A DNA stretch of 31,897 nucleotides from the IMG/VR virus record IMGVR_UViG_3300045119_000199, positions 1 through 31,897 of that record. The stretch is one strand, 5' to 3'. Source of the stretch: a virus. The notes beneath the pieces are model-generated. The model made no database searches. It was not told where the DNA came from and saw only the letters and a list, made by a program, of their open reading frames with translations. Below, in pieces: positions 443 to 30,923 of this stretch (the first letter of the stretch is position 1; every line of letters begins with the position of its first letter). Made by a program: the position numbers and the translations under genes.

Positions 443-473
443 GCTATACCAACCGCGGCGAGTTGCGCAACTA
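443..473 (-). promoter_or_regulatory. TAGTTGCGCAA promoter-like element A
   Basis: On the minus strand TAGTTGCGCAA occupies 473-463. Its TTGCGC half is followed by 16 bases and then the -10-like hexamer TATAGC (448-443), which ends ten bases before the ATG at 432. It lies just downstream of the terminator at 489-535. Three other copies of the 11-mer precede genes at 18142, 28785 and 30883 with similar spacing. Promoter function is inferred from this recurrence. Confidence 0.6.
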
Positions 474-488
474 CCGTTTCACGATCGT

Positions 489-535
489 AAAACACAAAAG
501 CGGCCAGGATTGCTCCCGGCCGCTCAGTTTGTGTT
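489..535 (-). terminator. Rho-independent terminator at the end of the late operon
   Basis: The hairpin stem is GCGGCC (500-505) with GGCCGC (518-523). After one mismatch (506/517) three more pairs follow (507-509 with 514-516), closed by a four-base loop at 510-513. On the minus strand the stem is followed by TTTTGTGTTTT. The flanking AACACAAA (491-498) and TTTGTGTT (528-535) are also complementary, so it may stop transcription from both sides. It lies about 80 bases after the stop of the tail-tip gene (614) and upstream of promoter-like element A, which separates two transcription units. Confidence 0.8.
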
Positions 536-613
536 GCGCTGTCTTAACCCTAATTGTTTGGTTGCCCGGCCGGGCGCGGCGCTCTATCGCATGGTTGCCT
601 CCCCCTCGGTCGA

Positions 614-2725
614 CTATGTTACAGCAATAGCCGTTGTCAGTTTAGCAACGCCGTCTTTCACGCCGCCAGCGCCGCCGACGAAGACGGCCAACACGTCGCC
701 GGCGTACACTCTGAGCGGCACATCACGCGGCACAAACACTGTTTTGGTGCCGGTTTCGCCCGCGGCGTACTCGATCTGTAGAGAGAACACGCCAGAGCCG
801 TTGATTAAGAGCGTGATCTGATTCAAGCCGCCCGCGGCGTTGGGATTCGAGAACTGAAAGCTCTGGATCAGTTCAACGGCGTTGGTGATAATCCGAGTGC
901 CGGGTTGCGTTCCGGTGCCGCTGCCGGGATTTGTGACGCCTGGCACACTCGGCCCAACCGTCCACTCATAGAAATTGAAGTTGCCCGGTTGCGGGAACTG
1001 CGAAGCCGTAACCAGCGCGGCAAAGAACTGCGTCCAGTTGCCCTGATACTGCGAGCTCGCAACCGTGACACCGTAGCGAAGGAACTGGCCGTCAACGTCG
1101 CGAATCTGAACGGCAACGATGAGCCCGGCGAGTAGGTTGATTGGCGGGTTGGCTGTTACGATCTCCTGCAGCATGCCGGCGAAGAGCCCGTCTGTGTCTG
1201 TGGTGTAGCTGACCTGGTACGGAATGCCGTTGCGGCCGTAGCGATCGAGCAAGCCTTGAGCGTACGCGGCGATCGCGGCCGGGTCGGTCGTCGAAGGCGC
1301 GTCTTGCACGTCTTCATAAACGCCGGTGTTGCCCTCGATCGCGGCGCGCGCGGCGATCTGGGCGTTGTCTTGTACCCAGTAGATCGGCGACAGTTGGCTC
1401 GAGTAATTCACGGTGAGCACATGCGCCGAGCTTAACGGCGTGTGGCTCGGATTCTGAAACACGCCGGGCGCCGGCGCCGGAAAGCCTTGCTGTGGGATGT
1501 AATACCAGTCCCACGGGCCAGGAAAGCCGACAACATCCAGCAACGATATGACGATTTGCGGCACACCGTCGACGAAGACGAGCGGCACACCGAGAATACC
1601 GTACAGCGTGATAAAGTTTGTCCGGATTCCATCCGGCGCCTGTGGCGTGTTCGGGAACGGGCCAGGATTCGCAACCGAAAAAATATCTTGCCAGAGGAAG
1701 CTTGATTGTGTTGGGCTTCGAATCCCTTGCTTGTTTCGATACTGGCCGCGGAAGTACTCGAGGTTCAGAGACTCGGCGAGCATGTGGCCGTCATTGTCGG
1801 CGACGTTGAACGGCGCCGGGCCCGTGCCAGAGCCGGCCGGATAGAACCGAATCACCTTGTAGTAATCTACGGTGAACTCCCAACCCGTGTTGCTCGAGAT
1901 CGTGTTAAAAGCTTGCTGCACGGTGACCCAGTTGAATTGAAGCGGCCCCATGTCGATATTCGGGTCGCCGTCCGAGTCGTCGAACGTGAAGCCGTCCGCG
2001 GCCAGGTAATTGTTAACAATATCCTGCACCACGTTTGAGAGAAACGCGTTGATCGGATAGTAAGCGCCGACGTAGCGCCGCAAGAGCAGGTAACTGAAGT
2101 CTGTACATTGCACGCCGCCTGAGCCTGTGCCCGTGGCCGAGCTCACGCCGCCGCCTGTGCTCCCACCACCAGCGCCGGCGTAAAGATGGCCGGCGAGCGC
2201 CTGGAAAGCCGCTTGTACGGGTTGCTCAACGCCGCCGCCGAAGATCCGGACCTTATGCCGGTATATCAACACTTCCTGGCCGACTGCCGGCGCCGGCACG
2301 GTGCCGGTTTTATCCCACATGGCGAAGGTTGCGGTTGCGGCCTGGCTCAGTTGGTTAACGATATTCAGCGTGTTGTCGAGCATGAGCTCGGTTCGATCGA
2401 TACCATCGATAAAGAGCGTAACGGCGTTGGTTGCATGAATGACGGCGCCGGGAAACGAGCGCGCCGAAATCTTCGCCGTGTAGCGTTGCCTGAGCGCGAA
2501 GCCGAGCGAGCCGGCATGCGATGAAATGGTGATCGTCGCGGTTACGGTTTGGGTGAGATCCGCGCCGACTAACCCAACGTGGCCGCTGAATGAACTTATG
2601 GTTATTTTGGCCGTCGCCGTCTGATCGAGCGACGGCGGCGCAATATGGCCGCTGGTATCAGGCGGCCACGGGCGCCGCTTGTTCTTTGGAAAGAAATCGC
2701 CTAGGCGTACGACATTGAAGCGCAC
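614..2725 (-). CDS. Tail-tip / baseplate hub-like protein
   Basis: This is a 703-residue structural protein. Residues about 100-170 (TLFIDGIDRTELMLD, then AVGQEVLIYRHKVRIFGGGVEQ) resemble the first barrel of phage tail hub proteins of the gp27/gpD type. A glycine- and serine-rich linker near residues 184-205 leads into CTDFSYLLLRRYVG and a second domain with VVQDIVNNYLAADGF and NTISSNTGWEF, again typical of hub proteins. The C-terminal 150 residues are beta-rich and may be an exposed domain. Residues 35-100 hold three imperfect short beta repeats. It is the last gene before the terminator at 489-535. The start is a GTG three bases after the preceding stop, so translation is probably coupled. 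The hub role is inferred from these segments and from position after the tape measure; no lysozyme-like catalytic motif was seen. Confidence 0.7.
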   Translation of the reverse strand: MRFNVVRLGDFFPKNKRRPWPPDTSGHIAPPSLDQTATAKITISSFSGHVGLVGADLTQTVTATITISSHAGSLGFALRQRYTAKISARSFPGAVIHATNAVTLFIDGIDRTELMLDNTLNIVNQLSQAATATFAMWDKTGTVPAPAVGQEVLIYRHKVRIFGGGVEQPVQAAFQALAGHLYAGAGGGSTGGGVSSATGTGSGGVQCTDFSYLLLRRYVGAYYPINAFLSNVVQDIVNNYLAADGFTFDDSDGDPNIDMGPLQFNWVTVQQAFNTISSNTGWEFTVDYYKVIRFYPAGSGTGPAPFNVADNDGHMLAESLNLEYFRGQYRNKQGIRSPTQSSFLWQDIFSVANPGPFPNTPQAPDGIRTNFITLYGILGVPLVFVDGVPQIVISLLDVVGFPGPWDWYYIPQQGFPAPAPGVFQNPSHTPLSSAHVLTVNYSSQLSPIYWVQDNAQIAARAAIEGNTGVYEDVQDAPSTTDPAAIAAYAQGLLDRYGRNGIPYQVSYTTDTDGLFAGMLQEIVTANPPINLLAGLIVAVQIRDVDGQFLRYGVTVASSQYQGNWTQFFAALVTASQFPQPGNFNFYEWTVGPSVPGVTNPGSGTGTQPGTRIITNAVELIQSFQFSNPNAAGGLNQITLLINGSGVFSLQIEYAAGETGTKTVFVPRDVPLRVYAGDVLAVFVGGAGGVKDGVAKLTTAIAVT
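2426..2623 (-). repeat. Three imperfect ~22-residue beta repeats in the tail-tip protein
   Basis: Residues about 35-100 of the tail-tip protein contain QTATAKITISSFSGHVG, QTVTATITISSHAGSLG and RYTAKISARSFPG in tandem. The shared pattern is T-A-x-I-(S/T) followed by S-x-x-G. They look like short beta hairpins placed before the hub domain. Confidence 0.55.
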
Positions 2726-2728
2726 ACG

Positions 2729-3199
2729 CTAACCGCCCATTTCTTCGACGATCACGGTAGTTGAAATGTGAACCGTCGAGTTAGGCGCGCCGAGCAGTTC
2801 GAACACGAAGGCTTCGGACGGCCCGACGACGGGCGGCCGCGGAAAGCTGTATTGATAGCCGGCGAAGCTGTTGGCGCCGTCCTCGAGCAACGTTGACGCC
2901 GTGCCGTTCGTCGTCGCCTTGCTGGTGCTATTCGCTTTCGCCGTGAAGCTCGCCGCGGCGTCGCCAGGGTCGTACGGTTGCGGCGTTGGGCTCGAGCCGC
3001 CCGAACCGTTGCTAACCGTCGCCGGCAAAAACCTGCAGCGCAAGCCGAATTGTTGGTTGGTGGGCGGCGATGTATCTGTCATGGCGGCCGCTACCGACAG
3101 AATGCGCAACATTTTGCCCGCGGCGCCGTTGATCTGTACTAGATCCTGAGCGGCCGACACGGCGACTTCCTCGCTTGTGACTGCATAAGTCCTCGGCAT
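2729..3199 (-). CDS. Small tail/virion structural protein
   Basis: The product has 156 residues. The N-terminal third (ITYAVTS-like beta strands: TSEEVAVSAAQDLVQINGAAGKMLRILSV in outline) and the C-terminal third (SEAFVFELLGAPNSTVHISTT) are beta-rich. A Ser/Thr/Ala/Gly-rich middle at residues 65-105 looks flexible. It sits between the beta-helix tailspike gene and the tail-tip gene, three bases from the latter, so it is very likely part of the tail tip or a fibre. The ATG at 3199 overlaps no coding sequence and GAGGAT, which is also the end of the preceding gene, could serve as its ribosome-binding site. I recognise it only as a type of small beta-sandwich virion protein and cannot name a family. 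Confidence 0.6.
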   Translation of the reverse strand: MPRTYAVTSEEVAVSAAQDLVQINGAAGKMLRILSVAAAMTDTSPPTNQQFGLRCRFLPATVSNGSGGSSPTPQPYDPGDAAASFTAKANSTSKATTNGTASTLLEDGANSFAGYQYSFPRPPVVGPSEAFVFELLGAPNSTVHISTTVIVEEMGG

Positions 3200-3202
3200 T
3201 TG

Positions 3203-4627: not shown

Positions 4628-4630
4628 TGG

Positions 4631-5047: not shown

Positions 5048-5055
5048 TGTTCCCC

Positions 5056-9005: not shown

Positions 9006-9031
9006 GAGTAACCAGCGATCCTCCGGTGTGT

Positions 9032-9418: not shown

Positions 9419-9493
9419 GATTGCAAATCATCATAGCACCAACGGCCACAAGTCGTTAGCGGCGCCGACTCGTAAAGATCGGTTGCCCGGCGT

Positions 9494-10338: not shown

Positions 10339-10340
10339 GG

Positions 10341-16649: not shown

Positions 16650-17975
16650 TCACTGTTCGGCTTCGCCGGCGAGCCGGTAGACTTCCGAGCACGCGCAATT
16701 GGGGTGTGCTGGCGGTTCGAAGTCGCCGGAATCGTGCGGCGCGTCGGCCGGGATAAATCCCTCGGCCTCGTTTGCGATGCACGTCTCGCAAGGATTGGTT
16801 TCCGTCTGCCAGGCTTTTTCCACGTCGGCGCCGGTGTCGGCGGCCTGAGTCGCGGCGTCGGCGCCCCCATCGTGGTAGGCGGTCGACACGACGTTAAGCG
16901 CGACAGTATCGGCGCGGCTCATCTTGTCGCCGCCTGGATCGCCGAAGCCGGCGAAGAGCGCGCCAAGAGCCGTCGACGCCGCGGCGAGTGTGAACGGCTC
17001 GAGCGCCTTTAGCGTGTTGTGCGCGCGATCGACGGTTGTACTGTCGAGATCGTCCTCGAGATCGGTACTCGTTTGGTTGCCGTACGGCGTTTGCCGGTCA
17101 AACCGCGCCTCCTCCACCTTCACGCCCAGTTGCGCCGAAGCGTGATCGATTCCAGCGTAGTAAGCTGCAACCTTCACTTTCGCATGTGCTGTGGCGAAGC
17201 TCGAGTCGTGCAACGGTAGCGCCGTGGCGACAACCGCGGCCGCGGTAACGTAATCCGTGGCCGTGTGAGTCTTCAGAGCTCGGCGCACGTTGCGCAATTG
17301 TTTGCGCCATCGCTTCTCGAGCGCGGCGCGCATCTGATCGCGAAGCGGCGCGATCGTCGAGCGGCGCGCGTCGGCCATCAGGTTTTCAACTAAGCGCTTA
17401 TTATCGCGCTCGAAGTCCTTTAGGCCGTATTGACTCCAGTCCATCGGGTCGGCTTCGCCAACTGGGTTTTCAACGTCCTTTGGATCTTCGCCGACGATAT
17501 GCGCGGCGAGCTTCGGGTTGACGTACCAGCGAAAGCGGCTTTCATCGGTGTTGATGTAAGCGACGGCGCCGTGATGGAACTCCCAGAGCTCATCTACAAA
17601 ACAGAATGCGACGGAAGCGAGCAAGCTTTGCACCAGCGGCGAATGAGTGACGACGAGCACAGACTCGGCATCCCATTCCTTCGCGTTGCTCTGGATCTCT
17701 TTCCATGCGGCCTCCGGGTTTCCGTCCGGAAGCAACGAACTTAGATGCTCGATCGGAGTATCACCGCGTACGACAGCCTCGGCGGTTTCCGCGGCGCGCT
17801 CGAAGTCGCTGCACACGATCACGTCGGGTTTCACGTTGGCAATCTTCAAGAACTTGCGCATGACTTTTGCCTGCTCGCGCCCAATATCGTTGAGCGGCCG
17901 CTCGGCGTCCATCTGCGGCCCGTCGTCGGTCAAGCAATGCCGCATGAGATAAAGTTTCACTGTCGCGCCCCCCAT
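16650..17975 (-). CDS. SixA-like histidine phosphatase fused to Mu gpF-type minor head protein
   Basis: The product has 441 residues and two domains. Residues 6-155 match the histidine phosphatase superfamily: LYLMRHCLTDD (R12, H13), RPLNDIGREQA, VIVCSDFERAAETAEAV (R60) and VLVVTHSPLV (H111). The spacing H13-R60-H111 is close to that of SixA, which removes phosphate from protein histidine. The usual RHG reads RHC here. Residues about 185-441 are a head morphogenesis protein with the hallmark KAWQTETNPCETCIANEAEGFI and PPAHPNCACSEVY (C396, C399, H424, C427, C429). This domain sits with the portal inside the procapsid. The ATG at 17975 lies inside the preceding gene. A GTG at 17960, overlapping that gene's stop as GTGA and preceded by a G-run, gives the more usual MKLYLMRH beginning and may be the true start. 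The frame is continuous through both domains. Confidence 0.85.
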   Translation of the reverse strand: MGGATVKLYLMRHCLTDDGPQMDAERPLNDIGREQAKVMRKFLKIANVKPDVIVCSDFERAAETAEAVVRGDTPIEHLSSLLPDGNPEAAWKEIQSNAKEWDAESVLVVTHSPLVQSLLASVAFCFVDELWEFHHGAVAYINTDESRFRWYVNPKLAAHIVGEDPKDVENPVGEADPMDWSQYGLKDFERDNKRLVENLMADARRSTIAPLRDQMRAALEKRWRKQLRNVRRALKTHTATDYVTAAAVVATALPLHDSSFATAHAKVKVAAYYAGIDHASAQLGVKVEEARFDRQTPYGNQTSTDLEDDLDSTTVDRAHNTLKALEPFTLAAASTALGALFAGFGDPGGDKMSRADTVALNVVSTAYHDGGADAATQAADTGADVEKAWQTETNPCETCIANEAEGFIPADAPHDSGDFEPPAHPNCACSEVYRLAGEAEQ

Positions 17976-18142
17976 AGTCTGTGCTCGAGCATTTTGCAGT
18001 CACGAATGAAGCGCCGCTCGCGCCTGGCCCAAACCTTGCCGAGCGCGGCTTCATTCTCGTTTATGTCGCTCCAGTCCACGGCGCGAACTAACGCGTTTAT
18101 CAGCGTGGAAACTTCGCGCTTCGAGAGCTTGATGTTAGTCAC
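17957..18142 (-). CDS. Small helical unknown protein, first gene of the late unit
   Basis: The product has 61 residues, MTNIKLSKREVSTLINALVRAVDW onward, all helical and rich in Arg/Glu. LSKREVSTLINAL resembles a short helix found at the start of several small phage proteins of unknown role. The start is GTG at 18142, five bases after the -10-like GATAAT of promoter-like element B, with no separate ribosome-binding site. The transcript would be leaderless or nearly so. The stop overlaps the start region of the phosphatase-head fusion, so the two are translationally linked. Function unknown. Confidence 0.6.
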   Translation of the reverse strand: MTNIKLSKREVSTLINALVRAVDWSDINENEAALGKVWARRERRFIRDCKMLEHRLWGARQ

Positions 18143-18147
18143 GCTGG

Positions 18148-18194
18148 ATTATCCCCCGCGGCGTTGCATTTGCGCAACTATCCGCGTACTGGTA
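18148..18194 (-). promoter_or_regulatory. TAGTTGCGCAA promoter-like element B
   Basis: On the minus strand TACCAGTA (18194-18187) is followed by TAGTTGCGCAA (18180-18170). Eighteen bases after TTGCGC comes GATAAT (18153-18148), then five bases, then the GTG at 18142. The TAG of the motif is also the stop codon of the preceding gene. The upstream TACCAGTA is shared with element C at nearly the same distance (9 versus 10 bases). It would start transcription of the head and tail genes. Confidence 0.65.
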
Positions 18195-18432
18195 CAAACG
18201 CTTGGTACGGGTGTGGCTGCCAGTGCCGGATGGTAACCGGGTACTCGAGGTTTACAAACAGGCTGCCGGCAACCGGCGTCTGCGTCGGCTTGTCTGAACG
18301 CGTCTCGATCGGCCGCCACTCCATACCACACTTGGGACACTCCCACCGCGTCGCTTCATCCAGCGCGCCAGAGCGCAACATGATACTGATGAGCCGGCCG
18401 CAACACGCGTCTGGCGCGTAGCTGTTAATCAC
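18178..18432 (-). CDS. Small zinc-ribbon-like protein
   Basis: The product has 84 residues. CC at positions 10-11 and WECPKCGMEWRPIE near residues 31-44 suggest a zinc ribbon, followed by a strand-rich half (SLFVNLEYPVTIRHWQPHPY). The GTG at 18432 overlaps the end of the portal gene. The stop at 18178-18180 is the TAG that begins promoter-like element B. Function unknown; the ribbon may serve protein or nucleic-acid binding. Confidence 0.6.
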   Translation of the reverse strand: MINSYAPDACCGRLISIMLRSGALDEATRWECPKCGMEWRPIETRSDKPTQTPVAGSLFVNLEYPVTIRHWQPHPYQAFVPVRG

Positions 18433-21413: not shown

Positions 21414-21508
21414 CGGCGTGTGGCGCCGCGGCCGTCCATGAATCCCATGAAGTAACAGAGCAACCCGAACACAAAGGCGCATAGGATCATCTTCGTATCG
21501 GTGCTCAT
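21410..21508 (-). CDS. 32-residue single-helix membrane peptide
   Basis: MSTDTKMILCAFVFGLLCYF begins a 32-residue frame with one membrane helix (residues 7-24) and a short basic tail. The ATG at 21508 overlaps the preceding stop by one base (TGATG), and its own stop overlaps the next start as ATGA, so it fits the unbroken chain of coupled genes. GGGG lies seven bases upstream. It may be a small lysis or membrane-associated peptide; function unknown. Confidence 0.5.
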   Translation of the reverse strand: MSTDTKMILCAFVFGLLCYFMGFMDGRGATRR

Positions 21509-22413
21509 CAGTACCCCAACAAATCTAGCCCGCGGAAGTGATCGCGGCCATGAGTCTCGAGTAATAGCCGTACTTCGGCCTCTTGCCATGGCTCGGCGTC
21601 GACGTGTAGGTACTGCATCCATGCCGCGTACGGCTCGAGCCAGGTTGCCGGCAACTGGTTAAACGTCCATGGCCGGTTCATGTTCATCTGGCGCGCCAGC
21701 GTCGAGTTAGGATCGGTTGCCGGCCCGTAGGTGTGTTCGATCTCGGCCGCCGTCTTATGCGGCCAACGTAACCGCTCGGTGATCTTGTAGAGCGCGTGCT
21801 TTGCCCGTAGCCGGCGCTCGGAGGCGCCCCACAGGTGTACAACGCCGCCGTACCCCTGGCGTAACGGGCGCCAGCGGTTCCAACCGCAACCGAACGGCTC
21901 GCGATGGTGAAAGCGATCGCCGCCCGATTCCCAGTTGAGCGCCGGCCCATCTTTGAACGCGGTACTAAACCAGCGGTTTCCCCAAATGCCGTTGGTGTGG
22001 TACCGCCAATGGTTCGGCTCGTCGCAACACTGGCGAATGTTGTAGCCTGGCAGTTCCAACATCATGCCGGGCGCCAGGCTGAAGACGTGGCCGCGAATGT
22101 CGGACAGAATGTTAGGCGTTAGAAACTCGTCGGCGTCGACGATCGCGATATGTGTGGCGCCCACTTCGAACGATCGCGCGAGCTCGAGCAACGCTTGACG
22201 ATGCCTCATTTCGTCCCATAGCGGCTTCTCGTCGCCCACCACGATAACGCGGTCCCGATAATCCGCGGCCGCGGTTAGTGCGATCGCGGCGCTATCGTCA
22301 TTGCACGCGTGAAGTAAGACAACAACTTGATCGCACCACTGCAATGCAACGCGTAACGTCAAGCCGAGACACCACGCCTCGTTGCGGACGGGCATCAGGC
22401 CAACGAGTTTCAC
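21508..22413 (-). CDS. Glycosyltransferase, GT-A fold (GT2-like)
   Basis: The product has 301 residues. The start MKLVGLMPVRNEAWCLGLTL is the nucleotide-sugar binding strand and loop of family 2-like glycosyltransferases. HIAIVDADEFLTP (residues 88-100) supplies the DxD-type metal-binding motif. LLHACNDDSAAI and the later WRYHTNGIWGN and VVHLWGASERRLRAKHALYKITERLR segments fit enzymes that resemble SPBc2-type and eukaryote-like GT2 variants. It would transfer a sugar to an unknown acceptor. It is coupled by ATGA to the sigma-like gene upstream. Acceptor candidates are a virion protein, phage DNA or host surface glycan. Confidence 0.8.
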   Translation of the reverse strand: MKLVGLMPVRNEAWCLGLTLRVALQWCDQVVVLLHACNDDSAAIALTAAADYRDRVIVVGDEKPLWDEMRHRQALLELARSFEVGATHIAIVDADEFLTPNILSDIRGHVFSLAPGMMLELPGYNIRQCCDEPNHWRYHTNGIWGNRWFSTAFKDGPALNWESGGDRFHHREPFGCGWNRWRPLRQGYGGVVHLWGASERRLRAKHALYKITERLRWPHKTAAEIEHTYGPATDPNSTLARQMNMNRPWTFNQLPATWLEPYAAWMQYLHVDAEPWQEAEVRLLLETHGRDHFRGLDLLGY

Positions 22414-22946
22414 GCGCCGAGCTCCTGGCGCATGCGTAGCATTGCGTACGTTTTCGCGGCGCCCATCCGGTTATGAGAAATTTGCATTTCGGTGCGAATG
22501 TCGCCCGTCGACCATCCGGCCGCCAAGAGACAAGCGACGGCGTAGCCGCGGCCGCTCATGCCAGCATGCGCCTGGCGCGGCTTTAAGCCGGCCACGGCGC
22601 GGCGCACGCAAACGCGCGCTATGATTCGATCTTCGATGTTACAGCCGTCCGGAATCGCAACCGGCCGCTCTTCGTCGTCGAGCGTCACTACCTCAACCGC
22701 GGCCAGATTGTTCCGCGTGCCGCTAACGGCGTACTTGCGCATTTGATCCTTTAGCGCGCCCACAACGCGAAGTCGTGCGAACTGCCAGAATGTCGAGCCG
22801 CGGGTTGGGTCGAACCGCGGAGCTACTTCGGCGAGCGTCAAGTAAGCAATTCCTATCGCGTCGTCTGGCTCGAGCGGCCCGCGGTTGCGAAGCGCCTGCA
22901 ACCGGGCGTTAGGCATTGCGTCCAGTATCATCCGTTCCATATCCAT
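22410..22946 (-). CDS. RNA polymerase sigma-factor-like protein
   Basis: The product has 178 residues. Residues 28-72 (DDAIGIAYLTLAEVAPRFDPTRG, then STFWQFARLRVVGALKDQMRKY) match sigma-70 family region 2, with the FDPTRG-x-x-F-x-x-(Y/F)A-x-x-R-(I/V)-x-GA pattern that is most like FliA-type factors. Residues about 117-172 (AVAGLKPRQ, CLLAAGWSTGDIRTEMQISHNRMGAAKTYAMLRMR) form a helix-turn-helix in the place of region 4. It would direct host RNA polymerase to phage promoters; the TAGTTGCGCAA elements in this window are natural candidates. GAGG lies two bases before the ATG at 22946 and eight bases before an in-frame ATG at 22940, so 22940 may be the real start. Confidence 0.7.
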   Translation of the reverse strand: MDMERMILDAMPNARLQALRNRGPLEPDDAIGIAYLTLAEVAPRFDPTRGSTFWQFARLRVVGALKDQMRKYAVSGTRNNLAAVEVVTLDDEERPVAIPDGCNIEDRIIARVCVRRAVAGLKPRQAHAGMSGRGYAVACLLAAGWSTGDIRTEMQISHNRMGAAKTYAMLRMRQELGA

Positions 22947-22956
22947 CGCCTCGATT

Positions 22957-23574
22957 TTACTTCGGTAGAACGAAGAGCGAATCCCAATGCCCTACGCCGG
23001 TTCCCTGTTTGGAAAGCTCATGCTGGATACAGTGATAGCCGAGCGTGTGCAGCCGGGCGCAAGCGCGCTCGCAACCGCGTTGCTTTCCTGGCCCCGTCCA
23101 ATCGTGAAACTCGACGCTGATCTGTGTCGCGATCGCCGCGGGTAGGTTCTCGAGGATGCCGAACTCTGAGCCTTCGCAATCCAGCTTGATCGCGTCGAAC
23201 GTCTCGCGCTGGTTGGAATATAAGAGTTTGGCAATGTTGATCGCGAGCACGCGCCGTATCTTGTAATCGCCGTGGCTTTCCGCCTCGAGCGCGAAGTTGC
23301 CGCCGCCGTCGCCGGCGATTCCCTCGGCGAAGTTGGTAGAAAATTGGTCGCCGCCGATCAGAGCCAGGCGGAAGAAGTGAACTTGTGCGGCCGGTAGATC
23401 CATGGCCCATTCAACATCGCTCGACGGGTCAAGCGCGATGATCTGAGCCTTTGGGCGCCAAGCGAGAACGCCGCGGGTAAAGTCGAACCAGCGGCAACCA
23501 ACGTCTAACACGAACGGCTCATCTGGTAACAGGTCAACATCGATGGTGTGCGAAGCAAGCGTTTGCAGATTCAT
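22957..23574 (-). CDS. FkbM-like methyltransferase
   Basis: The product has 205 residues from the ATG at 23574, which overlaps the preceding stop as ATGA; the long upstream extension is an unrelated Arg-rich frame. FVLDVGCRWF (residues 21-30) is the SAM-binding motif I and IIALDPS (45-51) the acidic strand. FDAIKLDCEGSEFGILENL (126-144) is the hallmark of the FkbM family, whose members O-methylate sugars and polyketides. The end VGHWDSLFVLPK closes the Rossmann-like sheet. Within this cassette a methylated sugar is a likely product. Confidence 0.8.
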   Translation of the reverse strand: MNLQTLASHTIDVDLLPDEPFVLDVGCRWFDFTRGVLAWRPKAQIIALDPSSDVEWAMDLPAAQVHFFRLALIGGDQFSTNFAEGIAGDGGGNFALEAESHGDYKIRRVLAINIAKLLYSNQRETFDAIKLDCEGSEFGILENLPAAIATQISVEFHDWTGPGKQRGCERACARLHTLGYHCIQHELSKQGTGVGHWDSLFVLPK

Positions 23575-23816
23575 TGCGGCTTTCCCTTTGTCCAGTCGAA
23601 CGGTTTGAAGCTGAAGCCTTCCGGTGTGATGATTGAGACGGCCGCGATCGCCCGCGGCGGCCCGTTCGGCTGTCGGACGCACAGGAATAGATTGCCGTCC
23701 TGTAACACTAGCGCCGTGCCGTGTTTCTTCATGACCGCTTGCACGTCGTTGAGCACGTCTTCGCCGCGGTCTGGATCGCCCGGCCGCGGCTCGGTGATAA
23801 CCCGCGGCCCGCTCAT
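23571..23816 (-). CDS. Small unknown protein
   Basis: The product has 81 residues. The pattern VLNDVQAVMKKHGTALVLQDGNLFLCVRQPNGPPRAIAAVSIITPEGFSF, in outline, is a helix followed by three strands. Similar small proteins occur in other phages, but I cannot name a family. GAGGA lies five bases before the ATG at 23816, which also overlaps the preceding stop as ATGA. Its stop overlaps the FkbM start as ATGA. Confidence 0.6.
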   Translation of the reverse strand: MSGPRVITEPRPGDPDRGEDVLNDVQAVMKKHGTALVLQDGNLFLCVRQPNGPPRAIAAVSIITPEGFSFKPFDWTKGKPQ

Positions 23817-23944
23817 CGTTTCCTCTTGAGCCAGGCGCGCAATCTGGTGCCGGCGCGTGTTCCAATGTCGCCGGCGATCGCCTCGAGCACGGCATAAGTG
23901 GCGACGGCGGCCGCAACGCCTAACAGAACGTCCCGCGTGCTCAT
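23813..23944 (-). CDS. 43-residue small membrane protein
   Basis: The frame MSTRDVLLGVAAAVATYAVL continues through EAIAGDIGTR and ends with the basic LRAWLKRKR. One membrane helix (residues 5-24) and a strongly positive C-terminus are visible. The ATG at 23944 overlaps the TylF-like stop as ATGA and its own stop overlaps the next ATG in the same way, so it occupies the gap exactly and very likely is translated. Function unknown. Confidence 0.65.
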   Translation of the reverse strand: MSTRDVLLGVAAAVATYAVLEAIAGDIGTRAGTRLRAWLKRKR

Positions 23945-24555
23945 GTCCACTTTCGCCACGCGATCGGCGCCGGCATCACGGTTTGATGCAAAGCATACCT
24001 GCAGCCGGCCAGGTCGTAATCATCGCAAATGATGTAACCGCCTTTGGCAACCAACGGGTACAGGTGCTCCATGCAAACTTTCGTCGACTCGTACAAGTCG
24101 CCGTCGAGCCGAAGCAAGGCGATCGCCTTCACTTCATACGACTCCGCGGTGTAACGCACGGTATCGCGGAAGTCGCCGACGTGGTACACCAGAAGCTCAT
24201 CCGGAATGCCCCACTTGCGCATATTGTTTTTGACATTCGGCAACGAACAGCGCGCCTCGCCCTGGCGCACTTGCGCCGGGTCGTCATGCGGGCCCGGCGC
24301 CGGGATTCCATCGAAGCTATCGAACAGGTGAACGCGCCGCGATCCATCGAACGGCATCACACTAGGGCTGTTGTGGTGATCTAAGATCGCGCGCGCCATA
24401 ATCGCGCAACTGGCGCCGGCGAACACGCCACACTCGACGAAATCGCCGGGAATGCCGCGGGCAAGCACGTTGCGCGCCAGGTCGTACGTCTGCTCTTGGC
24501 TCGTACGATGGCCGAGCGCCGATTGACAGACTTGTTCAAACCACTCTTGATTCAT
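23941..24555 (-). CDS. TylF/MycF-like O-methyltransferase
   Basis: The product has 204 residues from the ATG at 24555. GDFVECGVFAGASCAIMA (residues 37-54) is the family's SAM-binding start. RVHLFDSFDGIPAPG (74-88), KAIALLRLDGDLYESTKVCMEHLYPLV (143-169) and KGGYIICDDYDLAGCRYAL (171-189) are the TylF/macrocin O-methyltransferase signatures, including the Asp residues that bind metal. Family members methylate hydroxyls of sugars. The real start is fixed by the ATGA overlap with the preceding small gene; the upstream extension of the frame is not protein-like. Confidence 0.85.
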   Translation of the reverse strand: MNQEWFEQVCQSALGHRTSQEQTYDLARNVLARGIPGDFVECGVFAGASCAIMARAILDHHNSPSVMPFDGSRRVHLFDSFDGIPAPGPHDDPAQVRQGEARCSLPNVKNNMRKWGIPDELLVYHVGDFRDTVRYTAESYEVKAIALLRLDGDLYESTKVCMEHLYPLVAKGGYIICDDYDLAGCRYALHQTVMPAPIAWRKWT

Positions 24556-24710
24556 ACTCCAACCCCCATATCGCCCTCGAGTCGCTTCACCGCGGCCGGC
24601 GCCGGCGCTTGGGCGAGCGGCCCTTCGCATTCCGTGTAAGTCAACACTTCCACGTCGCCTAGTTTTTTGTGCAGCGCTTCTAACCGTTCGATGTATTCGC
24701 TGATCTTCAT
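24552..24710 (-). CDS. Small conserved-type phage protein
   Basis: The product has 52 residues, MKISEYIERLEALHKKLGDV followed by EVLTYTECEGPL. A helix followed by a DVEVLTY strand is a common small-phage-protein pattern, one of the MTISELI..L..GD..V type. ATGA overlaps at both ends tie it to its neighbours. Function unknown. Confidence 0.6.
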   Translation of the reverse strand: MKISEYIERLEALHKKLGDVEVLTYTECEGPLAQAPAPAAVKRLEGDMGVGV

Positions 24711-25492
24711 ACGTTGCAGTACTTGCTCCCTGTGCGATCGAGGATGTTTCCAGAGCGCCATTGCTGGCAGAACAGTTGAGGGTAGGCGTCCTCTGGCTTA
24801 TAGGTGCCGTTGTTGTGAACGGGCCATCCGTTTTGATCGGGCGTTCGATGCGTCGGAATCCCGTACTTGACGGCCAGGTTTCCCAACACAGATTGCTCGC
24901 AACTGTTCTTAAACAGCGTCGGGTCGTCGAGCACGCCGAGCACGGATGATTTCTCATGGAACGTGCAAGACGGATTGAGCGAGTAGGTTTGCCACTCGGC
25001 TAGGAACTGTTCAACGCGGTAGTTGCCGGCGCGATAGAGCGAGAACCGGCCGCAAGCTTGCGGCGCGTCGTAGTAGTGCGGTTGGTTCAAACAGCCCATG
25101 GCGTGAAAGCAATCCGCTTTCGTCCACTGCCGGTTGATGCAACCTTGCTCTTCAAACAACATGATTCCTTCGCGCTCGGTGTATTCGAAGAGACACGAAA
25201 CGTCGGACACTGGAAAGCTATCACCGTCCAGATAGAGCACCACGTCGCCGGGTTGGCAGTAGTGCGCGAGCGCGTGTTTGATGATGTACGGTTTCCATGA
25301 ACAGAAGCCGAAGCCGTGTTGTGGCTCGCGCTCGAAGATCCAACGATTGAGGGTGTAGAACGGCGTCGTCATGAGCCAGGCATCGTCATAGACGCGGTGG
25401 TGTAGCATGTTGCCCTGGCAGTATTGCACCTGGCGCGCGACTTGCTCATCGTAGGCTACGCCGCCGAAGGTAATCAGAATACGCTTGCTCAT
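24707..25492 (-). CDS. Glycosyltransferase-like protein
   Basis: The product has 261 residues from the ATG at 25492 (ATGA overlap). KRILITFGGVAYDEQVARQV begins a Rossmann-like domain and GFCSWKPYIIKHAL with GDVVLYLDGDSFPV (residues 82-95) supplies a DxD-type motif. This resembles glycosyltransferases of the mannosyltransferase or capsular type (WKP-x-x-I followed by YLDGD). The C-terminal half has several Cys and the segment ILDRTGSKYCNV. The donor and acceptor are unknown. It lies between two methyltransferase-like genes, which supports a joint pathway. Confidence 0.7.
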   Translation of the reverse strand: MSKRILITFGGVAYDEQVARQVQYCQGNMLHHRVYDDAWLMTTPFYTLNRWIFEREPQHGFGFCSWKPYIIKHALAHYCQPGDVVLYLDGDSFPVSDVSCLFEYTEREGIMLFEEQGCINRQWTKADCFHAMGCLNQPHYYDAPQACGRFSLYRAGNYRVEQFLAEWQTYSLNPSCTFHEKSSVLGVLDDPTLFKNSCEQSVLGNLAVKYGIPTHRTPDQNGWPVHNNGTYKPEDAYPQLFCQQWRSGNILDRTGSKYCNV

Positions 25493-25959
25493 TGCCAGAG
25501 CCTCGAGGCGAGCTCGTTGGATTGCGTCAAGACTAGCGTCCACGGCCGGGCGCGTTTGTCGACAATGTGATATTTCCAGCGGTCGAGCTCGAGCGAGTCG
25601 AAGATTTCCGGCGCCGGGTAATCGTGAATTACGATGTACTCGGCCGAGTCGACGAACAGCAAGGCGTCGGCCGCGCGCCGGTGTCCATTATGATCGAGGA
25701 AGACGATGGACCATTTCTCACTTGCGCAATTCCTCAGCGTCGTTGTCATTTGCGAAAGCGGGCAATAGGCACTAACCGTCTTCATGGCCCACGCTGGATC
25801 TTCCTCGAAGGACTGGAAGAAGCGCCCGGCGACTTCGCAGTATTTGCGCAACAACGGCGTCGACCATTCGCCAGAGCCAACCTCGAGCACGGGCCCGCTC
25901 GTTGCTAACAGGCAACTGAACAGCGCCGGCAGATGAGACGCCCACATTTGCTCGCTCAT
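25489..25959 (-). CDS. Class I SAM methyltransferase-like protein
   Basis: The product has 156 residues from the ATG at 25959 (ATGA overlap). GPVLEVGSGEWSTPLLRKYCEVAGRFFQSFEED (residues 22-54) has motif I and an acidic second strand, as in class I SAM-binding folds. WSIVFLDHNGHRRAADALLFVDSAEYIVIHDYPAPE matches motifs of small methyltransferases that carry a DH or HD pair for metal binding. It is shorter than most members. Substrate unknown; a sugar or glycan is suggested by its neighbours. Confidence 0.65.
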   Translation of the reverse strand: MSEQMWASHLPALFSCLLATSGPVLEVGSGEWSTPLLRKYCEVAGRFFQSFEEDPAWAMKTVSAYCPLSQMTTTLRNCASEKWSIVFLDHNGHRRAADALLFVDSAEYIVIHDYPAPEIFDSLELDRWKYHIVDKRARPWTLVLTQSNELASRLWQ

Positions 25960-26180
25960 CGGTTTACTGGTTTCCCTTCGATAGTCACCAGCGTAAGATG
26001 TAAAATCCTCGAATTTGGTAGCGCTTCGTCGAAGCGGGCCTCGTAAGCGACTCCCTCGCACTTAGCCTTATAGAGCGGCCGCTCGCCGCGCTTCAGTGCC
26101 GCGGATACCTGCTTGTAGACAGCCTCCGAAAACGATAATGTGAGTCCTTCTGTCAGGTCCTTCTCTGTCGGGAACATCAT
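25956..26180 (-). CDS. Small unknown protein
   Basis: The product has 74 residues, with a charged N-terminal helix (FPTEKDLTEGLTLSFSEAVYKQVSAALKRGERP) and a strand-rich second half (YKAKCEGVAYEARFDE, ILHLTLVTIEGKPV). The ATG at 26180 overlaps the preceding stop. A second ATG directly after it (26177) is four bases from GGAGG and may be used instead. Its stop overlaps the next start as ATGA. Function unknown. Confidence 0.55.
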   Translation of the reverse strand: MMFPTEKDLTEGLTLSFSEAVYKQVSAALKRGERPLYKAKCEGVAYEARFDEALPNSRILHLTLVTIEGKPVNR

Positions 26181-26974
26181 GCCTCCAATGGTTCGTGGCC
26201 GGGAAAGCCGCCTGCTTTGCGCGCCGCGAATAGCGCTTTACTTCGGTCCCAATCGCTTAACCGCGGGTCGTTGATCTTCTTCGCCCACTCGGGCGCGTCG
26301 CGCCAGTCGCCGCGCGGCCGGGCCCAGTGCCGATGCTCCTGCAGTAAGTCGCGCCGCTGCCAGAACACGCCGAGCTTTTGCGCGACGTTCTGTAACTCTT
26401 CGTCGGCGAAGTTGTGATAGTAGCCGTTGTACATCGGCCCTGAGCCGTGATACATGCGCCGGCAGAACTCGCGCCCCATCCAGGGCGAGCCGGCGATACG
26501 GTCGATTGTGGCTTGTCGGCCCGTGCCGCCGCACGCGTCGCACAGTATCGACATACTGCTAACGCCCATGCACTTTAGACAGCGAGCCTCGCCCCATCGG
26601 TCGCCGGTCGGTTGCATGACTCCGAAAGTCGGAGTCGAACGGCGCCCTTTCAGAGTCTCGAGGGTGTGAAAGTATTCGCCACACTCGGCCGCGATCTCGG
26701 CGGCCGTCTTCGTTGGGTCCGGATAGTAATCATCGCCGCCCGTGACAAACCACTCGGCGTCGGAATGAGCGGCCATGCACGCGTTTACTAACAGGTTTAC
26801 CGATCGCGCCCAACCGATATATTGCTCGACGACGCCTTGAAAGTCTGCGCACGTTCGGCCGTCTGCGTCTTCGCGCAACACGGCGACTTCGTAGCCCTGG
26901 CCGAGCCAAGCATCAATACAAGCGTTCGCCTCGGCCAGCGGCCGCTTGGATGGAATCACAAACCAGACGCTCAT
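26177..26974 (-). CDS. Glycosyltransferase-like protein with zinc-finger insertion
   Basis: The product has 265 residues. VWFVIPSKRPLAEANACIDAW begins a GT-A-like domain, and EWFVTGGDDYYPDP (residues 74-87) carries the acidic metal-binding motif. Between residues 132 and 152, CLKC and CDACGGTG form two CxxC pairs. The second is a DnaJ-type CxxCxGxG, an unusual insertion in a glycosyltransferase. The C-terminus has many Trp and basic residues (HWARPRGDWRDAPEW). The start overlaps the preceding stop as ATGA. Whether it is catalytic is uncertain. Confidence 0.65.
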   Translation of the reverse strand: MSVWFVIPSKRPLAEANACIDAWLGQGYEVAVLREDADGRTCADFQGVVEQYIGWARSVNLLVNACMAAHSDAEWFVTGGDDYYPDPTKTAAEIAAECGEYFHTLETLKGRRSTPTFGVMQPTGDRWGEARCLKCMGVSSMSILCDACGGTGRQATIDRIAGSPWMGREFCRRMYHGSGPMYNGYYHNFADEELQNVAQKLGVFWQRRDLLQEHRHWARPRGDWRDAPEWAKKINDPRLSDWDRSKALFAARKAGGFPGHEPLEA

Positions 26975-27747
26975 GGATACAACCTATCCCGCGCGTACGC
27001 GTCCCACTCTGGCGCCCGGCGCCACTCTGGGTTGATATGTGGTTTGTGCCGGTCGAACAAGTGGCCGGCCTCGCTCGACGACCAAAACGAGCCGCTGATA
27101 TTGGCGCCGTGAGTCTCGGCAATCAACATCGGGCCCGGTAGAACGCTTGGCAAGCCAACACCGTTGACGGCGTTAACCCTGACACGCTTGCAGAAGTCTG
27201 GATCTTCGTAAGTGAGCTTTTCGGAAAAAGCCGCGTTGCGCCACGTCTCGCGCCAGTAGGCGAGCGACGTTCCTACCACCATCGGCCGGATGGAATTGTA
27301 GCCGCCGAAGCGCCGGTAATCGTACTCCCACGCGTGGAAGATTGGCGCCGGCACATGCACGGCGCGCGTGTCGAGAAAGAGCAGGTTATGAAAGCCGGTC
27401 GCCGGTTGATCGCGAAGGCTTGCGACTTGGCATACCACACGCTCGGGCCCGCTCCAGTCGTCGGAGTCAAACGTTACGATCACGTCGGCGCCGGTGAGCT
27501 CGAGCGCCGCATTGCGCAACGCCCCAACCTTGCGCGCCTCTTCCGGTTGACGATCGCGAACGATAGCAATGAGTGAATGCGCCGCTCTGTCAGTGAGCTT
27601 GTACGGTACCTTGCCGGTGTCGTATATGAGCATGTGGGCGTTGCCGGCGTAGGTCTGCGATACAAAGCACGCAACGGCGCGATCGGTGAACGCCTGGCGA
27701 TCGGCAGTGAGACAGAGACAACACACCGAAGGCGCCGCGTTAGCCAT
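26971..27747 (-). CDS. Glycosyltransferase family 2-like protein
   Basis: The product has 258 residues. SVCCLCLTADRQAFTDRAVACFVSQTY (residues 7-33) is the start of a GT2 domain, GALRNAALELTGADVIVTFDSDDWSGPERV (75-104) supplies the donor-binding DxD motif as DSDD. The later YEDPDFCKRV (near 187) is like the acceptor ED motif. It would transfer a sugar from a nucleotide donor. The ATG at 27747 overlaps the preceding gene by eight bases (AATGGCTAA). Confidence 0.85.
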   Translation of the reverse strand: MANAAPSVCCLCLTADRQAFTDRAVACFVSQTYAGNAHMLIYDTGKVPYKLTDRAAHSLIAIVRDRQPEEARKVGALRNAALELTGADVIVTFDSDDWSGPERVVCQVASLRDQPATGFHNLLFLDTRAVHVPAPIFHAWEYDYRRFGGYNSIRPMVVGTSLAYWRETWRNAAFSEKLTYEDPDFCKRVRVNAVNGVGLPSVLPGPMLIAETHGANISGSFWSSSEAGHLFDRHKPHINPEWRRAPEWDAYARDRLYP

Positions 27748-28036: not shown

Positions 28037-28284
28037 TGCGGCGAGCTTCCCCCGTCGTTGATCGGGCGCCCCATTTCGCGCAAGTCGAGCGTCTGCTCGG
28101 CGGCCGCGGCCGCCCGCTTCGTGCCGGCGTCACTTCGCCGGCGCCGCTTGGGCGCCTCGGCTTGCCGGCCTTCGACAATGCCTTCGCACACGCGCAAAGT
28201 GTCGGCGGCGTCTTCGATTCCCTGGATTGAGAACCAGCGCCGTATATCGAACTCGTCGACTTGCCGTAACTCTTCGTCTGTCAT
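28033..28284 (-). CDS. Small charged unknown protein
   Basis: The product has 83 residues from the ATG at 28284, chosen because it overlaps the MazG-like stop as ATGA; the frame has another ATG nine bases earlier. DEELRQVDEFDIRRWFSIQGIEDAADTL is acidic and helical, the middle APKRRRRSDAGTKRAAAAAEQ is basic and probably flexible. Function unknown. Confidence 0.55.
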   Translation of the reverse strand: MTDEELRQVDEFDIRRWFSIQGIEDAADTLRVCEGIVEGRQAEAPKRRRRSDAGTKRAAAAAEQTLDLREMGRPINDGGSSPQ

Positions 28285-28523
28285 TTCTCGCACGCCTCCA
28301 TAGCGAACCGAAGCGCCATTGCGGCCAGTTGGATCGCCTCATGCCGCATCTTTTTTGGCTGCCGTTTCTTCGGCCGCTTCCACACTTCGGCTTTCAACTC
28401 GTCGAACTCTTCGTGGATCACGGCGAAGCCTTCATGCGCGGTGTTGAACTTCGCGTACTTTCGTAACGCTCGATCGAGCTCGTCTTGCACGTCGCGCAAT
28501 TCTCGGCTATAGAGTTTAGCCAT
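28281..28523 (-). CDS. MazG-like small protein
   Basis: The product has 80 residues. AHEGFAVIHEEFDELKAEVW (residues 29-48) with E38, E39 and E42 resembles the metal-binding EExxE motif of MazG-type nucleotide pyrophosphohydrolases. A second helix, HEAIQLAAMALRFAMEAC (61-78), holds another acidic residue, E62. It is short for a full MazG enzyme but like small phage relatives. It could remove abnormal or signalling nucleotides such as ppGpp, but no substrate can be read from sequence. The ATG at 28523 overlaps the preceding gene by eight bases. Confidence 0.55.
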   Translation of the reverse strand: MAKLYSRELRDVQDELDRALRKYAKFNTAHEGFAVIHEEFDELKAEVWKRPKKRQPKKMRHEAIQLAAMALRFAMEACEK

Positions 28524-28785
28524 TCAGTTTTTGTGCCACCAGTTCTAGCCAAATGTTTACCGCGTCGTCGTCTGCACAGTCGACGCCATGGCCGCGGCGT
28601 ACACCCTTGATGCATAGGCGCCGAAACTCGGCGACGCCGGCCGGCGATCCAACAACACCCCATCGGCCGTTCTCGTCTCGTACGCCGCGGACCTTGCCGA
28701 ACCGTTCGGCGCATGCCGCGAACTCGAAACCGAGCGTACGCCAGAACGCCGTTTTCGACAGTGAGGAAGGACAGCGACGCCGCAT
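28516..28785 (-). CDS. Small unknown protein, first gene of the accessory cassette
   Basis: The product has 89 residues from the ATG at 28785 (MRRRCPSSLSKTAFWRTLGFEF). It is basic, with Cys at 5, 25, 58 and 70 and segments AERFGKVRGVRDENGRWGVVG. The frame is open to 28890, but the promoter-like element C lies inside that extension, so I prefer 28785. The -10-like GATAGC ends ten bases before this ATG and no ribosome-binding site is seen. Function unknown. Confidence 0.6.
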   Translation of the reverse strand: MRRRCPSSLSKTAFWRTLGFEFAACAERFGKVRGVRDENGRWGVVGSPAGVAEFRRLCIKGVRRGHGVDCADDDAVNIWLELVAQKLNG

Positions 28786-28795
28786 GAACTGGAAG

Positions 28796-28841
28796 GCTAT
28801 CACGGCCGGTTGCATTTGCGCAACTACCGTTGGTACTGGTA
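28796..28841 (-). promoter_or_regulatory. TAGTTGCGCAA promoter-like element C
   Basis: On the minus strand TACCAGTACCAA (28841-28830) precedes TAGTTGCGCAA (28826-28816). Sixteen bases after TTGCGC comes GATAGC (28801-28796), then ten bases, then the ATG at 28785. It would drive the accessory cassette and, without a visible terminator before it, the portal gene. The TTGCGCAAATGCAAC core is shared with element B. Confidence 0.65.
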
Positions 28842-28888
28842 TGGTGTTTGTGCTGGCTGTGTAAGCAAGGCGTAAGCCTGAGCCTATC

Positions 28889-28943
28889 ATGGGCGCCGTT
28901 GAAACAGATTGCCAAGCCCGCGAACATTGCGGACGGCGCCCAT
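28889..28943. repeat. Perfect 11-bp inverted repeat between terminase and cassette
   Basis: ATGGGCGCCGT (28889-28899) and ACGGCGCCCAT (28933-28943) are exact reverse complements separated by 33 bases, starting one base after the TerL stop. Without a U-tract it is not a standard terminator. It may fold in the TerL messenger's 3' end, protect it, or bind a protein. The minus-strand arm holds an 18-codon frame ATG GGC GCC. Confidence 0.6.
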
Positions 28944-28944
28944 T

Positions 28945-30315
28945 TCAAATCGGCGAGATTTGAACGCCGCGGCCGATTTGCACAGACTGTTCCACAGGCT
29001 GAGGAAAAAGTAACTCCGTCACGGCCCACACCAGCGCATCCATCCGGTTCGGCGACGGCCCACCAGGAACGTACGTTGTCATTTCTTCCTCGAGCTCGGC
29101 GAAGACGCCGACGTGATGCACGATTCCCCGCTCGTACGCCGTCGCGATCGGCTCGGCGCGCGTCATCTTGCCGCGGCTCGCCCACACCTTTTGAAACGGC
29201 GCGTTGGGTTGCGCAACGCGTATATTCGCCTCCACCAGGTCGCCGCCGTTGTTGACTTCGCCCACGATCAAATCAACCGGGTACTGTGGGTGCCGCAAGT
29301 AATCGGTTGCTACCTTCGCCCACGCCGCTGGAAGCGCCCTTAGCGACGGGTCGGCCAGGATCAACACATGCCCCGATCGTACCTGAGCCGCAACACACAT
29401 GCCGGTTAAATCCGACGTGTCGGCCGTGCTCACGGCCGGGTCGATCGCGAGCACCACGCGTACGACCATATCCCACTGAACATCACGCAATTGGATGCGC
29501 AAATCGCCGATCAGTTTTGCCGTCCACAAGGCGCCGGGCGTGTCCTCGAGCACTTCGGCGTAAATCTCTTGCCGGCCGAGCCTGGTTCCTTCGTACGGCG
29601 CGATCACTTCGCGATAGTAGTCCTCGCTGATGTTGGCCTTGTTTTCGTAGCTCGAGCCGCGGGTAACGACAGTCCGCGGGTTGCTGATTAGTTCTTTGAG
29701 CTCTTTGGTTGGCTTCGGCGTCGTCGTGATAACGCCGCGCAACCTCGAGCTCTTCATGCGAAAGCCGAATTTGACTTGCGTCCAAGCTTCACTGAGGAAG
29801 CGCCAGGCGCAAAACTCTTCAGCCCAGAACTTTGTGAACTGCGGCCCGCGGAGGCGTTCCGGTTCGTCGGCTGATCGAAGTATGCCGATCGCGCCGCTTG
29901 GGAAAACAATGAGCCGTTTGGACGGAAAGTATTCCGGCCGGCGCGTCGCCGGATAACACTGCAGCAAGCCGGATGGCCCTTCAATCATCAGGTCGCGAAT
30001 GTCGGCCGCGGTGGGCGCGATCATGAGGATTCGCTCGTGTGGATCTTCGCCCCATATCCGGCACGTCTCGGCGCCGGTGCGAGTCTTGCCGAAGCCGCGG
30101 CCGGCGAGCACAAGCCAGAAGATCCAATCATCACGCGTGATCGCGGCGCGGTTCGTGCCGGGTATCAGTTGCTTTGGACGGCCCCACATGCCGGGCCAGT
30201 CGTGCAACATCGTGGCGCATTGCGCCTCGGTGAACTCGCTAAGAAGCTGGTTCCGTTGGTGTTCCGGTAACGATGCTAGCAATTCGGCTGTGGAGTAATT
30301 CTGATGCGCTGACAT
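28945..30315 (-). CDS. Terminase large subunit
   Basis: The product has 456 residues, the packaging ATPase and nuclease. LAGRGFGKT (residues 70-78) is Walker A, FWAEEF (163-168) Walker B with the catalytic Glu, and TTTPKPT (197-203) the coupling motif. The C-terminal nuclease has LAIDPAV (D292), IVGEVNNGGD (E353) and NRMDALVWAV (D426), the three metal ligands of the RNase H-like fold. Overall it matches the COG5323 / Terminase_6 type family, including gene transfer agent terminases. It cuts concatemers and pumps DNA through the portal. It overlaps TerS by 77 bases. Confidence 0.93.
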   Translation of the reverse strand: MSAHQNYSTAELLASLPEHQRNQLLSEFTEAQCATMLHDWPGMWGRPKQLIPGTNRAAITRDDWIFWLVLAGRGFGKTRTGAETCRIWGEDPHERILMIAPTAADIRDLMIEGPSGLLQCYPATRRPEYFPSKRLIVFPSGAIGILRSADEPERLRGPQFTKFWAEEFCAWRFLSEAWTQVKFGFRMKSSRLRGVITTTPKPTKELKELISNPRTVVTRGSSYENKANISEDYYREVIAPYEGTRLGRQEIYAEVLEDTPGALWTAKLIGDLRIQLRDVQWDMVVRVVLAIDPAVSTADTSDLTGMCVAAQVRSGHVLILADPSLRALPAAWAKVATDYLRHPQYPVDLIVGEVNNGGDLVEANIRVAQPNAPFQKVWASRGKMTRAEPIATAYERGIVHHVGVFAELEEEMTTYVPGGPSPNRMDALVWAVTELLFPQPVEQSVQIGRGVQISPI

Positions 30316-30883
30316 TCATTTCTAGCGGGCGCCCTGGCGCCGTCGAGTGTTCATGTTTGATCGCCGGCCCATATTCCGGGTTGCCGGTCGCCGGGCCCAA
30401 CGACTCGAGCAGTTTTATCATCAGTCGGTCGGACGCCTGCGAGCCATCGGCGCCCATCGCCCGGCGCCACGCTTCGTCGGCCAGGTGTTGAAACGCCAGA
30501 CGCTTCGACTCGTCGAAAGCTCGAGAATACGCCGGGTCGTTTTTGAGCCAGTCGTAATGAGTGCAGCGGTCAACGTCTGCGATCTCGGCCGCCTTGCTGA
30601 TCCGGCCCGTCTTGCCGTACGCGGCCAGGAAAGCGCCCTGGCGCATACGCTTGCCGTCCTCGTCGCGCGCGTTGGGTGTTGGCTTAGGTTGGGACTCAGG
30701 CGCCGCGGGCGCCGGTGGGACTGGCGCCGGAACGCCGAGCCGCCTTGCGAGCTCTTCGGGCGTTGCCTTTAGAACCGTGTCGCACTGGCCGCCCGTCGCC
30801 GGGTTCATCGATAGCCAGGTCGGACACTTCGTAACGTCCTCGGCCACGTCGACGGCGCCGTGTACATCGCAATACTTCGTCAT
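30239..30883 (-). CDS. Terminase small subunit
   Basis: The product has 214 residues. The N-terminus has C5, H8, C20 and C34, a possible zinc site. A Pro/Ala-rich linker (residues 48-72) follows. RQGAFLAAYGKTGRISKAAEIADVDRCTHYDWLKNDPAYSRAFDES (about 81-126) is the helix-turn-helix typical of small terminases that bind the packaging site. A helical oligomerisation region (SKRLAFQHLADEAWRRAMG) comes next. It precedes and overlaps the large subunit. The ATG at 30883 lies eight bases after the -10-like TACGAT of element D, with no ribosome-binding site. Confidence 0.85.
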   Translation of the reverse strand: MTKYCDVHGAVDVAEDVTKCPTWLSMNPATGGQCDTVLKATPEELARRLGVPAPVPPAPAAPESQPKPTPNARDEDGKRMRQGAFLAAYGKTGRISKAAEIADVDRCTHYDWLKNDPAYSRAFDESKRLAFQHLADEAWRRAMGADGSQASDRLMIKLLESLGPATGNPEYGPAIKHEHSTAPGRPLEMNVSASELLHSRIASIVTGTPTEPAS

Positions 30884-30891
30884 GAGCTTTG

Positions 30892-30923
30892 ATCGTACCT
30901 AAGCTCTTGCAATTGCGCAACTA
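30892..30923 (-). promoter_or_regulatory. TAGTTGCGCAA promoter-like element D
   Basis: On the minus strand TAGTTGCGCAA occupies 30923-30913, and its TAG is the stop codon of the upstream gene. Seventeen bases after TTGCGC comes TACGAT (30897-30892), then eight bases, then the TerS ATG at 30883. Same layout as elements A, B and C. It would start the packaging transcript. Confidence 0.6.

Follow-up and report, generated by a model that had tools for sequence, protein, structure and literature searches.

A TTGCGC promoter class shared by uncultivated phages and a candidate phage-encoded sigma factor for its recognition

Relation to known phage promoters

Phage-encoded sigma factors turn on late genes in SPO1 (gp28 and gp33/34) and in T4 (gp55), the T4 factor being without a normal region 4. 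At T4 middle promoters, the MotA box, centred near -30, replaces the -35 box and AsiA helps to appropriate the host sigma factor. In phiEco32 and in Salmonella phage 7-11, a phage sigma factor serves middle and late promoters of its own, the late ones lying before structural genes, and early genes use host-type promoters (PMC4331800); factors of the phiEco32 type have been assigned to the ECF class (PMC7881722). In bacteria, leaderless genes of several phyla are marked by a TANNNT some 12 bases upstream of the start codon (PMC3160421; PMC12340547); the phyla include Actinobacteria, Deinococcus-Thermus and Acidobacteria (PMC3160421).

The promoter class described here was found in an IMG/VR record of 31,897 bases, a fragment of a virus genome referred to throughout, at its full length, as the window, and in metagenome-derived relatives. 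It would resemble the phiEco32 and 7-11 systems in that the phage supplies a sigma factor, structural genes follow a small number of well conserved promoters and TTGACA host-type promoters occur elsewhere, but its core, TTGCGC-N17/18-TANNNT, differs from TGATGT in 7-11 and from TAATGTATA in phiEco32. With SPO1 and T4 gp55 it would share the control of late genes through a phage sigma factor, whereas promoter sequences and phages are unrelated. As in T4 MotA middle promoters, a phage-specific box lies upstream of a sigma-70-type -10 box. Leaderless host genes likewise have their -10 box adjacent to the start codon and lack a Shine-Dalgarno site (PMC3160421; PMC12340547); they are found by that -10 box, to which the present class adds a phage-specific -35 box. 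No TTGCGC phage promoter class was found in the literature searched, where the lone paper with the word TTGCGC alongside promoter and sigma factor concerns E. coli enterotoxin control. The class is known in kind (phiEco32, 7-11, SPO1), and what is new is its sequence and the phage group. It would join late promoters of the phage-sigma kind with the TANNNT placement of leaderless genes, and it offers a sequence-defined putative late-promoter class, with a named candidate sigma factor, for phages known from metagenomes alone.

Four probable promoters in the window

The terminase, portal, capsid and tail genes of the window all lie on the minus strand, and a search for DNA-level similarity between the window and known phages found none. 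As originally predicted, the 11-mer TAGTTGCGCAA occurs in exactly four copies, all on the minus strand (463–473, 18170–18180, 28816–28826 and 30913–30923; sites 1 to 4), against an expectation for both strands of 0.015–0.04 copies under Markov models of orders 1–4 and 0.22 under order 5. Start codons follow 35–38 bases after the four 11-mers, which agrees with the claim that all precede genes, but sites 1 and 3 also fall inside open frames (250–495 and 28516–28890, respectively).

At site 1, the -35 box TTGCGC (465–470), contained within the 11-mer, is followed after a spacer of 18 bases by the -10 box TAGCCT (441–446) and, 8 bases on, by the ATG (430–432) of a gene for a 60-aa ribbon-helix-helix-like protein (250–432). 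The longer frame through site 1 is unlikely to be coding, as homology to five relatives begins at the ATG at 432; upstream of it, the stretch that aligns with relatives is in effect the promoter itself. Site 2 combines TTGCGC (18172–18177) with GATAAT (18148–18153) across an 18-base spacer, and the GTG (18142) of a gene for a 61-aa protein (17957–18142) stands 5 bases on. No homolog of this protein is detectable. The gene that follows (16650–17975), conserved in relatives, encodes a histidine-phosphatase (His_Phos) domain fused ahead of a Mu F-like head protein, a fusion kept in several relatives.

Site 3 follows the terminase large subunit gene, with TTGCGC at 28818–28823, TAGCCT at 28794–28799 (spacer 18) and an ATG (28785) 8 bases on; the 89-aa protein predicted behind it (28516–28785), likewise without a detectable homolog, heads a unit that continues into further genes. 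Site 4 has TTGCGC at 30915–30920, TACGAT at 30892–30897 (spacer 17) and, 8 bases on, the ATG (30883) of the terminase small subunit gene (30239–30883; PHROG 4044, E 6.7e-10), whose product is 40% identical to that of relative G017 in an alignment from residue 2.

Several details of the original prediction can be compared with these structures. The TAG of the motif was said to be the stop codon of the preceding gene at two sites, and it is indeed the stop of frames 18178–18432 (site 2) and 30921–31748 (site 4). The claimed lack of a Shine-Dalgarno site holds for all four genes; that many other genes here have one is only roughly right, a match of at least 4 bases being present at about 13 of 43 predicted starts. 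The -10 boxes proposed for sites 2 and 4 stand. Those of sites 1 and 3 gave way to TAGCCT, two bases downstream of the earlier choice (TATAGC, 443–448, at site 1), which fits better and matches the relatives.

The sites have the 16–19-base spacing and the TATAAT-like -10 box of sigma-70-type promoters and lack a TTGACA-like -35 box, TTGCGC having TTG alone in common with TTGACA. When a matrix was built from the sites of eleven relatives, with the window left out, the four sites came out as the best four of the window on both strands (31.4 bits for site 3, 26.2 for site 1, 25.1 for site 2 and 24.0 for site 4), the next best scoring 21.4 bits. Taken together with the comparisons below, these sites are almost certainly promoters. 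The next-best matches, at 21.4 and 20.0 bits, fall on the plus strand at sites 3 and 2 (28816 and 18170), opposite the proposed promoters; antisense promoters there are conceivable, and the palindrome alone could give these scores.

The same promoters in related phages

Relatives were collected through the capsid protein (57–73% identical to that of the window), the longest ones used being G001 (40.6 kb) and G002–G008, and through a terminase search that added G017–G024; G002, G003 and G004 are closely related, and their sites are not independent. The scan of related phages proposed with the original prediction shows the TTGCGC-TANNNT layout recurring at homologous gene junctions. Before the terminase small subunit gene, G001 carries TTGCGC-N18-TAACCT-N9-ATG and G017 TTGCGC-N18-TAGCAT-N8-GTG. 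After the terminase, the corresponding arrangements are TTGCGC-N18-TACACT-N9-ATG in G001 and TTGCGC-N18-TAGCGT-N8-ATG in G017, where a different gene stands behind the promoter. Before the phosphatase/Mu F gene, TTGCGC-N17-TAACAT-N6-GTG is found in G002 and TTGCGC-N17-TAGCAT-N5-GTG in G003.

The 60-aa protein behind site 1, which we take to be a ribbon-helix-helix protein from our own reading of its sequence (it has no Pfam match), is 38–44% identical to homologs in G001–G004 and G017, every alignment starting at residue 1. G001 has TTGCGC-N18-TAGACT-N8-GTG before this gene, and TTGCGC promoters precede it in G002 and G004 as well, while in G003 and G017 the word deviates by one base; TTGCGC, TTGCGA or TAGCGC together with TANNNT stands directly upstream of each homolog. 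The equal N-terminal length in the window and G001–G004 places the start codon directly behind the promoter, and promoters of this class can in this way correct the start codons of the small genes behind them.

An enrichment test over all hexamers was applied to words 17–18 bases upstream of a TANNNT near the start codon of an open reading frame of at least 50 aa. TTGCGC is the top word both in the sigma-bearing relatives, the window being left out (12 occurrences versus 0.25 expected, p 1e-16), and in the window alone (3 versus 0.09), whereas TTGACA is top in the relatives without the sigma gene (4 versus 0.08). When no start-codon condition is set, 27 of 300 TTGCGC sites in G001–G004 and G017 are followed by TANNNT after 17 or 18 bases, against about two per spacing elsewhere; neither the reversed word nor the relatives without the sigma gene show such a peak. 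Of 34 candidate sites, 29 are on the late-gene strand. The matrix obtained with the window left out, the shared junctions in divergent relatives, the TTGCGC enrichment and the spacing peak all bear out the idea of a promoter family, and the grouping of window and relatives' sites into one putative phage promoter class is well supported at the sequence level.

The relatives also redefine the conserved unit, which had been taken to be the 11-mer and proves to be TTGCGC, often flanked by GGTAC or GGTAG before and AA after. The -10 box is TANNNT at nearly all sites and GATAAT or CATAAT at a few. At the site 2 junction of G001 and G010, the octamer TTGCGCAA is kept while its spacing to the -10 box is broken, an observation that gave rise to the idea that TTGCGCAA is a translation signal beside the stop codon; this was rejected, since nothing beyond TTGCGC and its distance to the -10 box is kept at other sites.

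Predicted leaderless and leadered messages

At all four window sites the -10 box lies 5–8 bases before a start codon that has no Shine-Dalgarno site, and most -10 boxes in the window and its relatives end 5–9 bases ahead of the start codon. Such a placement implies that transcription would begin at or within about 2 bases of the codon, and the four window messages are, judged from this placement, very probably leaderless. A few members of the class have a gap of 19–28 bases and a Shine-Dalgarno site: in G002, G003 and G004, GGTACTTGCGCAAGTA...TAAGGT or TAACGT is followed by GTGAGGAGAA and ATG, as expected for a leader with a Shine-Dalgarno site, and a further G002 site has 28 bases between the -10 box and the start. 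The existence of these leadered members separates the promoter class from leaderlessness, which is common in the class and does not define it. The predicted leaderless messages are therefore upheld as a frequent placement, seen at all four window sites, but they are not intrinsic to the promoter. One phage promoter class seems to give rise to messages with and without leaders.

A candidate phage sigma factor

The candidate reader of these promoters is a 178-aa sigma-70-family protein encoded on the minus strand of the window (22410–22946), whose Pfam match to Sigma70_r2 (E 2.5e-5) is just above the cut-off. This gene, the probable source of the factor that reads the promoters, was overlooked in the original prediction. 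Region 2 is accompanied by region-4-like C-terminal helices, modelled with low confidence (about 60 pLDDT) and giving no Pfam match to region 4. At the same place in G001–G004, between a methyltransferase gene and a glycosyltransferase gene, lie genes for proteins of 167–175 aa with Sigma70_r4 (E 1e-11 to 1e-14) and a weaker region 2, which are 21–24% identical to the window protein. A joint profile of the window protein and these relatives matches FliA/WhiG sigma factors in the PDB, and sigma factors are the top Foldseek matches of the window protein model, with weak E-values. A search of 50,697 phage records at E 0.01 gave no homolog of the window protein. Genes of glycosyltransferase-like and methyltransferase-like proteins surround the sigma gene in a block (window 21508–27747) that stands between terminase and portal and is conserved in relatives.

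Sigma genes were not detected in G005–G008 and G019–G024, and TTGCGC promoters are nearly absent from the same phages: 15 TTGCGC sites occur in five sigma-bearing phages versus one in ten without a detected sigma gene. G018 and G023 are exceptions. G023 has one TTGCGC promoter and no sigma gene was found in it; G018 has a sigma gene elsewhere in its genome and zero TTGCGC promoters in 19 kb. The G018 sigma factor (L141:9643–10131), which has full regions 2 and 4 and occupies a different locus, may have another specificity. No sigma gene was seen in the G017 fragment, which may stop short of that locus. On the strength of this co-occurrence, recognition of the promoters by the sigma factor is the most likely link between the two. 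Plain co-inheritance, as opposed to function, may alternatively account for it, the capsid tree being compatible with a single origin of the sigma-bearing phages although it does not show them to be one clade. The ribbon-helix-helix gene is distributed in the same way as the sigma gene, and its product is a rival candidate.

A promoter class read by a phage-encoded sigma factor is the best explanation of these findings and, in our judgement, a reasonably probable one. Host RNA polymerase, equipped with the two-domain sigma factor of the phage, would recognize TTGCGC as -35 box and, after a spacer of 17–18 bases, TANNNT (GATAAT at site 2) as -10 box; the four promoters would drive late, structural gene units, with messages beginning at or within about 2 bases of the start codon. 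Since the promoters lie upstream of the sigma gene, late transcription would reinforce itself. The low identity between the sigma proteins speaks against this reading, as does the preference of many two-domain (ECF) sigma factors for other -10 boxes. The fuller proposal, that an undescribed branch of two-domain phage sigma factors reads TTGCGC with a housekeeping-like TANNNT to yield mostly leaderless late messages in uncultivated phages, seems to us evenly balanced.

Alternative explanations

The same promoters could instead be read by the host housekeeping sigma factor, TTGCGC being a tolerated or host-specific -35 box. Their spacer and TANNNT box are of the ordinary sigma-70 type, TANNNT lies near leaderless starts in several bacterial phyla (PMC3160421), and the single TTGCGC promoter of G023 occurs in a phage where no sigma factor was detected. 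However, relatives without the sigma gene are enriched for TTGACA and show no TTGCGC peak, and G001, G003 and G004 hold TTGACA-type and TTGCGC-type promoters side by side; hosts may differ between phages. Two genome scans for prophages, made with capsid and terminase alignments, gave no relative, so that the comparison is limited to phage promoters. We regard reading by the host factor as unlikely. Another possibility is that TTGCGC(AA) is a phage activator box, or the operator of the ribbon-helix-helix protein encoded behind site 1, superimposed on the -35 region of promoters used by the host sigma factor, in the manner of T4 MotA boxes. This would suit the perfect palindrome TTGCGCAA, the co-occurrence of the ribbon-helix-helix gene with a motif that also precedes the gene itself, and the junctions of G001 and G010 at site 2, where the palindrome outlives the -10 spacing. 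Against it, conservation does not extend to the right half (AA), TTGCGCGA, TTGCGCCA, TTGCGCCG, TTGCGCGT and TTGCGCAT being found at the same spacing, and the distance to the -10 box is as tight (17–18) as that of a -35 box, and an activator or operator is likewise unlikely in our judgement.

Chance would explain the four sites if they were coincidental products of an octamer over-represented across the window. TTGCGCAA occurs in 13 places, many of them inside genes, and exceeds codon-shuffle expectation in the window; since palindromic octamers generally exceed the synonymous-codon shuffle, TTGCGCAA alone is no evidence for promoters. The full 11-mer is expected 0.02–0.2 times, relatives with few TTGCGCAA copies have promoters at the same junctions, and the window had no part in the matrix that ranks its sites, so that the relatives already contradict coincidence, which is hardly credible. 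Reading by the phage sigma factor stays the preferred account of the TTGCGC promoter class.

Two further sequence features were recorded. In coding sequence of the window (614–30883), CGAGCTCG, CGGCGCCG, GCCGCGGC, GCTCGAGC, GCGGCCGC and TTGCGCAA clearly exceed the synonymous-codon shuffle. Tandem GACGGCTACGGC-type repeats lie at L048:11650–11800, shortly past the promoter-led gene behind the terminase.
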